A stretch of DNA of 64,000 nucleotides, taken from Pirellulales bacterium (GTDB taxonomy: Bacteria; Planctomycetota; Planctomycetia; Pirellulales; JALHPA01). Where the stretch lies: positions 1 to 64,000 of the forward strand of contig JANRLT010000063.1 of NCBI GenBank assembly GCA_033762255.1, given 5' to 3'. Shown here piece after piece: positions 30,691 through 40,060 of the stretch. Position 1 is the first letter of the stretch; each line of letters begins with the position of its first letter. Below the pieces are notes generated by a model, which was given only the letters and a program-made list of their open reading frames with translations, searched no databases and had not been told where the DNA came from. A program made the translations under genes and the position numbers.

Positions 30691-31143
30691 ATGTTGCGCC
30701 GGTTGATAATTGCCTGGGGGGCGCTCGCCATGAGTGCGGTGCTCAGTTATCCCTTGATCACGGGATTGGCCTTTAACGGTTTTGGGTTAAATAGGCGGGA
30801 AAACGTCAGCCCGGGTGTATGGGTGGTTGGCTTGATTGCGGTCGGTATTTGCCTCTTGACGGGAGGGGTGGCGTTGGGGATTACCGCGTTGCGTCCGCGG
30901 GACGCGCGGGGAGTCTCCTACATCCTGGGGGCGATGCTGTTGCGGATGTCCGTTCCTTTGCTGGCTTTGGCGATGTTGTCGCAAAAATTAGATGAATTGG
31001 GCTTGGTAAAGTTTTCTTTACAGTTGGTTCCCTACTACCTGATTATGCTTGCCATAGAGACGTTGTTATCGCTGTGGATTGGAAGCGCAACGGACGCCGA
31101 CACGGCGACTGCCAGCGGAAAGGAGCTGTCCCATGGCCGCTGA
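30691..31143 (+). CDS. atpI: ATP synthase subunit I-like membrane protein
   Basis: From the ATG at 30691 this 150-aa protein has four hydrophobic helices (about 5-27, 42-65, 75-95, 105-125). That is the AtpI topology, although the sequence itself is poorly conserved. AtpI assists c-ring assembly in some bacteria. It sits between atpZ and atpB. Its end overlaps the atpB start by 11 bp, which suggests translational coupling. The frame extends to 30634, but the membrane topology fits better from 30691. Confidence 0.72.
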   Translation: MLRRLIIAWGALAMSAVLSYPLITGLAFNGFGLNRRENVSPGVWVVGLIAVGICLLTGGVALGITALRPRDARGVSYILGAMLLRMSVPLLALAMLSQKLDELGLVKFSLQLVPYYLIMLAIETLLSLWIGSATDADTATASGKELSHGR

Positions 31144-32230
31144 CCCACTCTTGCACATTAAGGACTCGTACTACTTCGAAGTCCCCCGCTTTTTGTGGCA
31201 ATACACCAACATCAACCAAATTCCCCAGTGGCTGCGCGACTCCCACGCCGACGACCACTTTACCCTCGCCGATTATCAAGAACACCTGAACGGCAAGATC
31301 ATCATCCCGCAGTTTTTTGGCACGCCCAAGAACCTGTATGAGCCGGGGACGGGCTTTAGCGTCTCCAAGTTCATGATCATCATGTTGGTCGTGGCCTTGA
31401 TCATGATCTTTTTGTTTACCCGCTTGGCCCTGCATATTCGGTCAGAGGGGGCTCCGCGCGGGCGGTTGTGGAATCTGCTCGAAACGTTTGTGGTGTTTTT
31501 ACGCGATCAAGTGATTCGCCCGGCGATTGACGGCGGACACGACGATCATGGGCATGGAGATCACGCGGCGGATGGTCATGTGCACGATGACCCACGGCAC
31601 GCGGAGTTGGTGCCAGCAACGGCAGGGCACGGCCACGGAGCGGTTGCGGCCGGACATGCGGTCGGGGGTCATGCCGCGCACGCCCATCATGCCCGCGAAT
31701 CCGATAAATTCCTGCCGTACCTGCTGACGCTGTTTTTCTTTGTATTGGGTTGTAACCTATTTGGCATTTTGCCGTGGTTAGGCTCACCCACCGGGATGTT
31801 TACGGTCACGCTTGTTTTGGCTGGTTGCACGATGTTAGCGGGTTTGATAGGTGGGATCATGAAATTTGGTCCGCTGGGTTATTTAACGAACTTGGTCCCT
31901 GGAATGGACTTGCCAATTTACATGGCAGTGATACTAAAGCCGTTTATATTTGTGATTGAGGTCTTTGGATTGTTGGTCAAGCATGGCATCTTGGCGGTGC
32001 GGCTATTGGCGAATATGGTGGCGGGGCACTTGGTGATTGGTGGGATAATGGGGCTAATAGTCGCCGCGGCGGCTTCCAGCAGCGCGTTTAGTTATTGGCT
32101 GACGGTGGTCATAGTGTGTTTCGGCAGCATGGCGTTTTTCCTGCTAGAGTTATTCGTGGCTTTTTTGCAGGCATACATATTTACGTTTTTGTCGTCGCTG
32201 TTTATCGGCGCGTCGATTCATAAACATTAA
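31133..32230 (+). CDS. atpB: F1Fo ATP synthase subunit a, with histidine-rich loop
   Basis: Subunit a forms the proton half-channels next to the c-ring. The ATG at 31133 has a good ribosome site (AAGGAG 6 bp before). At 365 aa it is about 100 longer than E. coli AtpB. The first helix is near 78-98. Later come FVLGCNLFGILPWLGSPTG near 202, VIEVFGLLVKHGILAVRLLA (the essential Arg lies in the RLLANMVAGH motif), and the final helix with LELFVAFLQAYIFTFL. Between helices 1 and 2 (about residues 135-188), a loop carries about fifteen histidines (HDDHGHGDH, GHGHGAVAAGHAVGGH). By the known topology that loop should face the cytoplasm. Confidence 0.96.
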   Translation: MAADPLLHIKDSYYFEVPRFLWQYTNINQIPQWLRDSHADDHFTLADYQEHLNGKIIIPQFFGTPKNLYEPGTGFSVSKFMIIMLVVALIMIFLFTRLALHIRSEGAPRGRLWNLLETFVVFLRDQVIRPAIDGGHDDHGHGDHAADGHVHDDPRHAELVPATAGHGHGAVAAGHAVGGHAAHAHHARESDKFLPYLLTLFFFVLGCNLFGILPWLGSPTGMFTVTLVLAGCTMLAGLIGGIMKFGPLGYLTNLVPGMDLPIYMAVILKPFIFVIEVFGLLVKHGILAVRLLANMVAGHLVIGGIMGLIVAAAASSSAFSYWLTVVIVCFGSMAFFLLELFVAFLQAYIFTFLSSLFIGASIHKH

Positions 32231-32656: not shown

Positions 32657-33457
32657 ATGACCAAGCGTGCCTGGGATTGTGTGTTGTCACACTGGACTTT
32701 TGCTAGTTTGGCAATGGTTCTCTGGATTGTTGCCTTTTGCCCTGGTTTTGCCGGATTGGCAGCAGGCGCAGAAGATCCGGCCGCCTCAACTCCGGCCGCC
32801 TCAACTCCGGCTGCCGAGGCCACGGATAACCATTCAAAAACGGAAAAGTCCGATGTCGCGGGCCATGGCGGCGATGCGAAACATTCCACGGGCCATACCG
32901 CCGGCGGTCATGATGACCACGCCCATCCCGGTCACAAAGGGATGGGCCAGGCGCAGGCGGTCGATTGGCGGAGCGATCTGGCGATTTACTCGTTTGTGGT
33001 GTTCCTCTTGCTGATGGCCGTTTTGACCAAGTTTGCCTGGGGACCCATTAGCCAGGCCCTTGACCAGCGGGAGGAGAGCATTGCCGACAATATCGCCAGT
33101 GCCCAACGAGCCGCCGCCGAGGCCAAGTCGATGCTGGGCGAGTACGAGGCAAAGCTAGCTAACGCGGCCGATCAGGTCCGCGCCATGCTAGAAGAAGCCC
33201 GCCGCGACGCCGAAACGACCAAGGGAGAAATCATCAACGAAGCCAAAGTTGCCGCTCAACAAGAGCACGATCGGGCTTTGCGCGACATTCGCACCGCGAC
33301 TGACGGCGCGATGAAGCAATTGGCCGAAAAGAGTGCGGATTTGGCCACGGAACTGGCGGGCAAAATGCTGCGGGCCCAAATGAACAAGGCCGACCATTCC
33401 CGCCTGGTGCAGGAAAGTCTCGCCCAGTTTGTCGCGGGCTCCGCCAGTAATAACTAA
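32657..33457 (+). CDS. atpF: F1Fo ATP synthase subunit b, with long histidine-rich N-terminus
   Basis: Subunit b is the peripheral stalk. It is 266 aa, against about 156-170 aa in most bacteria. Residues 1-38 look like a signal peptide. Residues 40-95 form an Ala/Pro/Thr- then His-rich segment (His at 59, 70, 76, 80, 85, 88, 90, 93). The transmembrane helix follows near 107-125, then the long charged coiled coil (AKSMLGEYEAKLANAADQVR, EEARRDAETTKGEI) that contacts subunit delta. If the N-terminus is exported, the His-rich part lies on the periplasmic side. The ATG at 32657 is the first with a plausible context. Confidence 0.93.
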   Translation: MTKRAWDCVLSHWTFASLAMVLWIVAFCPGFAGLAAGAEDPAASTPAASTPAAEATDNHSKTEKSDVAGHGGDAKHSTGHTAGGHDDHAHPGHKGMGQAQAVDWRSDLAIYSFVVFLLLMAVLTKFAWGPISQALDQREESIADNIASAQRAAAEAKSMLGEYEAKLANAADQVRAMLEEARRDAETTKGEIINEAKVAAQQEHDRALRDIRTATDGAMKQLAEKSADLATELAGKMLRAQMNKADHSRLVQESLAQFVAGSASNN

Positions 33458-38587: not shown

Positions 38588-38992
38588 ATGGCCAAAGCCC
38601 AATCCATCCAGGTGATCGTGGTCACGCCCGAAACCACGCTCCTTGACACCACGGCCGAGTTCGTGGCGCTCCCCTTATACGATGGCGAGCTAGGCGTGGC
38701 CCCCGGGCATGCCCCGTTTATTGGCCGCCTGGGTTACGGCGAGTTGCGGGTGGCCCAGGCAGGCGGGGGACAAAGCTACTACGTGGACGGGGGTTTTGCG
38801 CAGGTGGCCGGGGATGTGGTGTCGCTGCTGACCAATTATGCCGCACCGGCAGCGCAACTGGACTTGGCCGCCGCCCAGCGACAATTAGCCGACATTACCG
38901 CCCGTCCGGCCAAAACCGACGAACAGATTCAGGCAAGGCTGAAGGCCCAGGAACAAGCGCGGGCCAAGATTCGCCTGGCGGGAAAACGGTAG
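38588..38992 (+). CDS. atpC: F1Fo ATP synthase subunit epsilon
   Basis: Epsilon is the bacterial inhibitor subunit on the central shaft. It is 134 aa with the usual N-terminal beta-sandwich (VIVVTPETTLLDTTAEFVALP, GELGVAPGHAPFIGRLGYGE) and two C-terminal helices. The repeat-bearing 340-bp gap from atpD may mean that it has its own promoter or is differently expressed. A strong terminator follows its stop codon. The ATG at 38588 is the first suitable start. Confidence 0.95.
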   Translation: MAKAQSIQVIVVTPETTLLDTTAEFVALPLYDGELGVAPGHAPFIGRLGYGELRVAQAGGGQSYYVDGGFAQVAGDVVSLLTNYAAPAAQLDLAAAQRQLADITARPAKTDEQIQARLKAQEQARAKIRLAGKR

Positions 38993-39022: not shown

Positions 39023-39060
39023 AAAAAAAAACGCCCCTGAAAATACAGGGGCGTTTTTCT
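39023..39060 (+). terminator. Terminator of the ATP synthase operon
   Basis: ACGCCCCTG (39031-39039) pairs with CAGGGGCGT (39046-39054), followed by TTTTTCTTTTCCC. An A-run precedes it, so it can also work from the minus strand for the cysteine-rich gene at 39127-39597. Confidence 0.92.
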
Positions 39061-39126: not shown

Positions 39127-39597
39127 TTAGCATGTGCCGCAGCAGACGGGAGTGTTATTGAACGAAATATAGCAGCAGCAACCATTGTCGCAGCAGCAGC
39201 TTAGACAGTCGCAGCACGCTTGCAGCATGTCGCAACAGGCCTTATCGCCGCTGGTGCAGGTGATGCAGCAGCCATCTTTCGTCAAATCGCACTTGCAGAT
39301 GCCCACGGTCAGGTTGCATTGGCAAACGGTGATGCCATTGCAGGTGCAGCAACAACTGCAAGTCCCTTCGCAGAGCATCTTGCAGAGATTTTGCAGTGTG
39401 GCGCAGGACATTTCATCATCGCAACTGCAAAAAATCTTAAAACCTCCGGCACACTTTTCGAACTTCAATTCACAGCGGGGCAGCACGCACCAATTGGCCG
39501 CGGCCGGGGTGCCTACTGGAGCGGTGGCGGGTCCCCAGCTCACGTGTGGACCGCTAGCGGCGGTAGCGGGACGTTCCAACATAACAGCACTCGACAT
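39127..39597 (-). CDS. Cysteine-rich protein of unknown function (34 Cys in 156 aa)
   Basis: I do not recognise this protein by name. The ATG at 39597 has a strong ribosome site (AAAGGAG, 8 bp before), so the longer frame to 39660 is rejected. The first 45 residues are Ala/Pro-rich and lack a signal peptide. From about residue 36 cysteines come every few residues: FCSCDDEMSC, GTCSCCCTCNGITVCQC, CKCDLTKDGCCITC, ACCDMLQACCDCLSCCC, DNGCCC and VCCGTC. The count is 34 of 156, with several CC, CCC and CxC clusters, and hardly any histidine. This suggests metal (Zn, Cu, Fe-S or Cd) binding or a heavily cross-linked fold, as in metallothionein, but the length is greater than usual and the family is unknown to me. 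It lies alone, convergent with atpC. Confidence 0.85.
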   Translation of the reverse strand: MSSAVMLERPATAASGPHVSWGPATAPVGTPAAANWCVLPRCELKFEKCAGGFKIFCSCDDEMSCATLQNLCKMLCEGTCSCCCTCNGITVCQCNLTVGICKCDLTKDGCCITCTSGDKACCDMLQACCDCLSCCCDNGCCCYISFNNTPVCCGTC

Positions 39598-40060
39598 AAC
39601 ACAGACTCCTTTCGGTGGCCGGGTGTCAAACGGGAAGCAATTCCCCAAAGATACACCCAAACACTTGTGAAAGCGCGACTTCTGGGCTTCCAGTCAGAAT
39701 GCGCCGGCAGAAAAGATAAACCTTCCGCTTGTCGGGTCGGCATGTGATTAGCTGTATTGTTCAGATGAGATGGATTTTGACAACGCTATTTTTTAAAAAT
39801 GGTGGAAGAATTTTTGCAAGCAGAATAAATGTTTAGTTATGAAGTGATCTTTTAGTAAAGGTTTAGCTAGCAAAAGAGGAAAAGTGGAAAGATTTATGGT
39901 TTGCGTAAGATCTTACCTTTATTGGGCTTGCGCAATGCTCACGTGAATAAAAGCCATGTTTTTTAAGGATTCCTAGAAATTCTAGATTGAACTTGGAATC
40001 TTTCCCGCTACGATACATTAGTAAGTTCATCAACTAACTTATTTTAAGTTTCGGTGTTCC
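39598..40060. other. AT-rich intergenic stretch
   Basis: About 460 bp are AT-rich from 39740 on and contain the promoter and leader of the cysteine-rich gene. No gene, repeat or RNA was identified. Confidence 0.4.

Follow-up and report, generated by a model that had tools for sequence, protein, structure and literature searches.

A family of cysteine- and methionine-rich bacterial proteins, its probable sulfur regulon and its possible role as a sulfur reserve

The sulfur-rich protein encoded near the ATP synthase operon of the window (i.e., the whole 64,000-nucleotide stretch of Pirellulales DNA analyzed here) is, judged by sequence comparison, a member of an undescribed bacterial protein family. 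The protein very probably belongs to a sulfur regulon, and its function within this regulon may be that of a sulfur-amino-acid reserve, a role to which we give an even chance. The broader proposal is more tentative and stands somewhat below even, namely that this would be the first bacterial protein reserve of sulfur amino acids, with a fold of its own and two forms, one rich in Cys and the other in Met, under the control of a new tandem-hairpin RNA which reads the sulfur status (as a candidate riboswitch or a protein-binding leader) and is common to Planctomycetota and Clostridium.

The ORF runs from 39597 down to 39127 on the minus strand (stop codon at 39127–39129) and encodes 156 aa, which include 34 Cys, 5 Met, 1 His, 2 Trp, 1 Tyr, 7 Lys, and 2 Arg. 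The preliminary description had reported 34 Cys in 156 residues with almost no His, a real gene and a strong ribosome site, and these points are borne out. The site AAAGGAG (39606–39612, minus strand) is located 8 nt before the ATG, homologues were found in 14 of 57 genomes of the same order (47–69% identity, with the exception of one short fragment), and six homologue pairs gave dN values of 0.04–0.28 versus dS values of 0.53–1.5. A dN well below dS is an indication of protein-like evolution and, together with the homologues, of a true gene. Further upstream, directly before the RNA element described below, a promoter-like site (TTGTCA-16-AACAAT, 39756–39783, minus strand) is a consensus match only, as one match was observed versus 0.7 expected by chance. 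The window protein has no signal peptide and would thus be placed in a reducing compartment.

The proximity to the ATP synthase operon, to which attention had been drawn, is true but not meaningful. The last gene of the operon ends at 38992 on the plus strand and is convergent with the sulfur-rich gene, a terminator-like hairpin (39027–39058, plus strand) is placed between the two, and homologues have other neighbors. For the latter reason, a function deduced from the ATP synthase neighbor was dropped. As a separate observation, the ATP synthase subunits a and b (window positions 31079–32230 and 32657–33457) contain long His/Asp-rich stretches (e.g., HDDHGHGDHAADGHVHDD in subunit a), which are unusual and possibly metal-binding.

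Single-sequence and profile searches of Pfam, NCBIfam, and PDB gave no match to the window protein, in agreement with the family having been called unknown from the outset. Similarly, 16 members showed no relevant match in Pfam and none of note in NCBIfam, and the literature search found no paper on Cys/Met-rich planctomycete proteins or on bacterial sulfur storage proteins. A wider draw from the same order showed a match in 31 of 396 genomes, and the scan of named genomes revealed 52 loci. Homologues are present in Pirellulales, Gemmataceae, Isosphaeraceae (e.g., Singulisphaera acidiphila), Phycisphaerales, Verrucomicrobiota, Omnitrophota, and Clostridium. The clostridial locus of the named-genome scan is that of Clostridium luticellarii, and within the family of this species 7 of 195 genomes had matches, five of them full length. 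Plasmids and phages gave no match.

In the tree (midpoint-rooted and without a support test), the Met-rich members cluster in a single large group, and those of Clostridium branch next to Omnitrophota and Verrucomicrobiota. This placement suggests a transfer of the gene between phyla. In some planctomycete genomes (G036, G044, and G051), both forms, Cys-rich and Met-rich, are present as one copy each. Remnants of the gene, either short or disrupted, occur in planctomycete and clostridial genomes (L014, L090, L091 and L214, L215, L217) and suggest its repeated loss.

The alignment of 43 sequences showed 18 invariant columns and 20 nearly so, including about 14 Cys, each kept in >90% of the sequences. 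The spacing of the cysteines, which the preliminary description had proposed to check, is therefore conserved in distant species including those of other phyla, and the cysteines do not drift freely. The members range from 34–38 Cys with 3–5 Met to 15–18 Cys with 50–72 Met, the named extremes being 34 Cys and 5 Met for the Cys-rich form and 18 Cys and 72 Met for the Met-rich form. Among the 43 members, Cys and Met together make up 30–56 of the 119 core residues and their counts are anticorrelated (−0.74), which is an indication that total sulfur is kept and not its kind. Exchange of Cys to Met is just 1.17 times the expectation from composition and BLOSUM, and Met is mostly found in place of Leu, Thr, Val, and Ile. 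The idea that Cys and Met are interchangeable metal ligands was thus unsupported, Met being located mostly at hydrophobic positions.

The chief rival explanation regards the protein as a sink for soft metals, with Cu(I) as the likeliest ion (Ag and Hg being alternatives), in which a cytosolic domain filled with thiols and thioethers would bind many ions, with a function akin to that of bacterial Csp proteins or metallothioneins, and the sulfur genes would be coregulated through the high cysteine cost of the protein. The 34 Cys with almost no His, the CC and CxC motifs and the thioethers of the Met-rich relatives are in its favor, since thioethers suit Cu(I) and not Zn. Moreover, about 14 Cys that are invariant across phyla are better explained by a Cu(I) or other soft-metal partner than by a store. 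On the other side, Cys is not preferentially swapped for Met, and overall we consider such a sink unlikely.

The AlphaFold2 model, which was built with 43 sequences, predicts a disordered N-terminal tail (residues 1–37, 39487–39597, minus strand; pLDDT <50 for residues 1–35) and a core with pLDDT >90. The tail is rich in Ala, Pro, and Ser in the window protein and in Met in other members. The predicted core consists of two strand-strand-helix-strand-strand units, i.e., a duplicated beta-beta-alpha-beta-beta arrangement, with repeat 1 at residues 39–97 (39307–39483, minus strand) and repeat 2 at residues 98–156 (39130–39306, minus strand), the latter ending in the conserved TPVCCGTC. The two halves align with each other (hhalign probability 95.3%, E 2.4e-8, 31% identity, 45 columns) and, on this mutual match, the core domain is an internal duplication. 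Foldseek and VIA-align comparisons of the predicted model with the PDB gave nothing above chance level (best Foldseek E 0.54; Z 4.2, unrelated proteins).

A compact predicted fold with a high Cys density could also be that of a structural protein held by disulfides. This explanation is scarcely credible for a protein that has no signal peptide, and hence would lie in a reducing compartment, and whose family members have anywhere between 15 and 38 Cys, in odd and even numbers alike. Furthermore, Met is abundant in many members and cannot form disulfides.

The neighbors of the family genes were scanned by phmmer with representatives confirmed by Pfam, and the sulfur set comprised Rrf2, sulfate ABC permease and binding protein, CBS/cysteine synthase, and CGS/CGL. 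There were 85 phmmer matches in 1,069 kb around the family genes versus none in 400 kb elsewhere in the same genomes, with control and enrichment counts both taken from simple ORF calling and not from curated annotation. A gene of the sulfur set is found within 10 kb at 37 of 64 loci, which include related genomes and hence are not 37 independent events, and within 2.5 kb at 32 of the 64. In detail, the partners in Pirellulales are the transsulfuration pair in some cases and a sulfate transporter in others, those in Gemmataceae are Rrf2 with or without cysteine synthase, and the partner in Isosphaeraceae, Verrucomicrobiota, and Omnitrophota is Rrf2. As the partners differ between lineages, a functional tie is indicated and not an inherited gene order. 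The untargeted Pfam tally of three genes on either side is headed by PALP (6), DUF1559 (6), and Rrf2 (5), followed by CBS and Cys_Met_Meta_PP (3 each); metal pumps and methionine sulfoxide reductase are absent among the flanking families shown. The window copy itself is without a nearby sulfur gene and is linked through its RNA element and its family.

Eight Rrf2-adjacent family genes (L039, L044, L047, L049, L050, L052, L061, and L064) are without the hairpin and have short similar motifs upstream, GTCGNNATTG in Gemmataceae and TCATGNTACAT in Isosphaeraceae, which are possible Rrf2 sites.

These neighborhoods also bear on the metal role, possibly metallothionein-like, that had been proposed earlier. 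Binding of metals by so many thiols is chemically likely, but no recurring neighbor points to metals, as neither a metal transporter nor a chaperone nor a metal regulator recurs beside the gene. Sulfate transport, the enzymes of cysteine synthesis and transsulfuration, Rrf2, the shared RNA element and the SAM riboswitches all favor sulfur supply over metal.

The same neighbors are compatible to some extent with a thiol redox or sulfane-sulfur buffer, in which Cys (through persulfides and disulfides) and Met (through sulfoxide) would absorb oxidants or reactive sulfur during sulfur assimilation. Both residues are oxidizable, Rrf2 regulators include redox and reactive-species sensors, and further neighbors make cysteine and handle sulfide. 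However, thioredoxin, peroxiredoxin, and methionine sulfoxide reductase are not prominent beside the gene and strict anaerobes, Clostridium among them, also carry members, so that we hold a buffer to be rather improbable.

The RNA element is placed in the 5′ untranslated region of the window gene (39671–39744, minus strand), as located by two covariance models and by covariation, and also stands 5′ of many homologues. It is formed by two tandem YY-GA-stem-loop-stem-A-GG hairpins, the second of which has an outer stem. Hairpin 1 (39720–39741, minus strand) is GCC-GA-CCCG-ACAAG-CGGA-A-GGT, with one C-A mismatch in the window copy, and hairpin 2 with its outer stem (39673–39704, minus strand) is GCGC-ATT-CTGA-CTGG-AAGC-CCAG-AAG-TC-GCGC. 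The window copy scored 39.7 bits (E 1.7e-7) with model R1 and 51 bits (E 6.9e-8, whole-genome search) with model R2. The element is previously uncatalogued and absent from Rfam. At the gathering score, Rfam 15 gave no match in the window and only a tRNA in seven loci, and at E up to 1 the window's untranslated region was still without a match, as was the element in six loci.

The seed of the element alignment was limited to equal loops; MAFFT misplaced the 3′ arm where loops differed. For 34 distinct sequences in a model-fitted alignment, which favors structure, 97.6% of the cells pair versus 89.5% in shuffles, changes on both sides are seen in 11 of 15 pairs versus 3.0 in shuffles (0 of 500 as high), and pairing falls to 40–62% when the partner is slid. 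An independent test, without fitting to the covariance model, is offered by a clostridial stem position outside the search pattern, with 44 A-U, 11 G-C, 1 G-U, and 1 A-C (Fisher p 8e-10). The folding energy of the window element is not better than that of shuffles (z −0.09) and the single-hairpin pattern is not rarer than chance within the window; the case for an RNA is therefore made by the covariance model and the covariation.

Within the order, the element is present in 26 of 396 genomes. It is followed by the family gene, cysK, a gene for a Porin_O_P protein, or DUF1559 and lipoprotein genes. The element is 26 nt upstream of cysK, and a sulfate transporter is encoded there in the divergent direction, whereas the element-borne DUF1559 and lipoprotein genes come after sulfate transporter operons and the porin genes are near sulfate transporters. 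Five Clostridium genomes contain 57 hairpins versus 4 for the reversed pattern, upstream of genes that include those for the sulfonate-binding SsuA (which exceeds the NCBIfam cut-off), for related ABC ATPases, and for nitrogenase-like reductases. Several of these genomes have 2–6 hairpin copies ahead of the family gene. The recurrence of the element before cysK, before porin and DUF1559 genes in the vicinity of sulfate transporters, and before clostridial SsuA is one of the links between the family and a sulfur regulon.

Some further occurrences of the element were recorded. The two-hairpin element is present as three consecutive copies before a DUF1559 gene (L176/L178, G051 contig 86). The Porin_O_P gene follows the element at L184–L187, L189, L191, and L195–L197, in planctomycetes without a detected sulfur-rich gene, and possibly encodes a sulfate or organosulfur porin. 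Nitrogenase-like component I genes, which score below the NifD cut-off, are found 3′ of the clostridial hairpin at L242, L250, and L226 and are candidates for sulfur scavenging of the methylthio-alkane reductase type. At L236, the clostridial hairpin precedes a nitroreductase and then a P-type ATPase with a heavy-metal-associated domain. This second gene is the only metal-related one seen in the regulon and counts in favor of the metal sink.

The linkage of the family to the RNA element, kept in two phyla, and to Rrf2 genes could also mean that the protein is itself a regulator or scaffold of the sulfur pathway and binds, for instance, the tandem-hairpin RNA or Fe-S clusters. We find this improbable, because its basic residues are few for an RNA binder (7 Lys and 2 Arg) and the element is present in genomes without a detected member, e.g., several of family f8.

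In three of the five clostridial genomes (L218, L220, and L065), a SAM riboswitch (RF00162; 84.7–89.7 bits) is located ∼220–260 nt past the family gene, on the opposite strand and pointing into the gene. At L218, it has a perfect TTGACA-17-TATAAT promoter before it and an intrinsic terminator after it. At L220, the stretch read contains no alternative target gene on the same strand. A riboswitch that is antisense to the gene, downstream of its 3′ end and equipped with promoter and terminator is the layout of ubiG, where the antisense RNA is cut short at high SAM and the gene is turned on (PMC9943018, PMC2940859). According to this published logic, the clostridial family gene would be on when SAM is high. 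Regulation by SAM has no link to metal and counts against the metal sink.

The reserve reading draws on the extreme Cys and Met content kept in the family, on the indifference to Cys or Met and on the predicted expression at high SAM, in genes that are tied to sulfur supply. The protein would be a cytosolic store, a small duplicated folded domain with Cys, and in many relatives Met, packed into its strands and helices. Cells would synthesize it while reduced sulfur is available and consume it in shortage. In the regulon, it would be joined by the uptake systems for sulfate or sulfonate, by cysteine synthase, by the enzymes of transsulfuration, and by Rrf2 regulators. The 5′ tandem-hairpin RNA would exert the control in Pirellulales and Clostridium and probably the neighboring Rrf2 regulator in other lineages, either of which may sense sulfur status. 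In three clostridia, further control would come from an antisense RNA shut off by the SAM riboswitch at high SAM.

Certain observations speak against a reserve. Genes with the element, such as those for sulfonate uptake, are typically expressed when sulfur is scarce. A store should then be emptied, and the SAM-antisense logic would appear to point in the opposite direction. The two may be reconciled if cells in scavenging mode that meet a sulfur pulse fill the store. In addition, mere storage gives no reason for about 14 Cys to be invariant, and the cost of any very Cys-rich protein might by itself be enough to link it to sulfur supply.

Known bacterial stores are those of carbon, nitrogen, phosphate, and elemental sulfur, and no protein that stores sulfur amino acids was described in the papers searched. 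If true, the proposal would add a new class of reserve, offer slow-growing planctomycetes and acetogens a way to ride out sulfur pulses and provide an RNA tied to sulfur, whose ligand or protein partner could be looked for directly. Should the protein prove to bind metal, soft metals would be bound at high capacity by a new fold. In both cases, a sulfur regulon comes to light that is common to Planctomycetota and Clostridium.

Among known systems, the Csp copper storage proteins (Csp1 and Csp3) likewise have very many Cys and a possible storage role. They are Cys-lined four-helix bundles, and the cytosolic Csp3 is a precedent in favor of the metal sink (PMC5171941). A duplicated beta-beta-alpha-beta-beta fold is predicted here (core pLDDT >90), and single-sequence and profile searches of the PDB gave no sequence match, while the fold comparison gave no clear one. 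Metallothioneins resemble the family in their Cys content of around 20%, their CC and CxC motifs and their few aromatic residues. The family differs in its greater length (core of 119 residues), its confidently predicted fold, its Met-rich members and its sulfur-gene neighborhood, and no metallothionein profile of Pfam or NCBIfam matched. Its long spaced layout had been noted from the start to differ from that of classical metallothionein.

Plant 2S albumins and delta-zeins also exist in Cys-rich and Met-rich versions, and a Cys/Met reserve is the function proposed here. They are secreted eukaryotic seed proteins to which no homology was found, whereas the present family is bacterial, apparently cytosolic, and seems to be controlled at the RNA level. 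The ubiG-mccBA operon of Clostridium acetobutylicum shares with the clostridial members a downstream SAM riboswitch on the opposite strand, with its own promoter and terminator, directed into a sulfur-related gene. That operon encodes Met-to-Cys enzymes, whereas the target here is a Met-rich protein with a new hairpin element at its 5′ end. Lastly, mini-ykkC (guanidine-II) similarly places two or more short tandem hairpins in the 5′ untranslated region; the element described here has no Rfam match and is distinguished by its YY-GA-stem-loop-stem-A-GG consensus and by the sulfur genes downstream of it.
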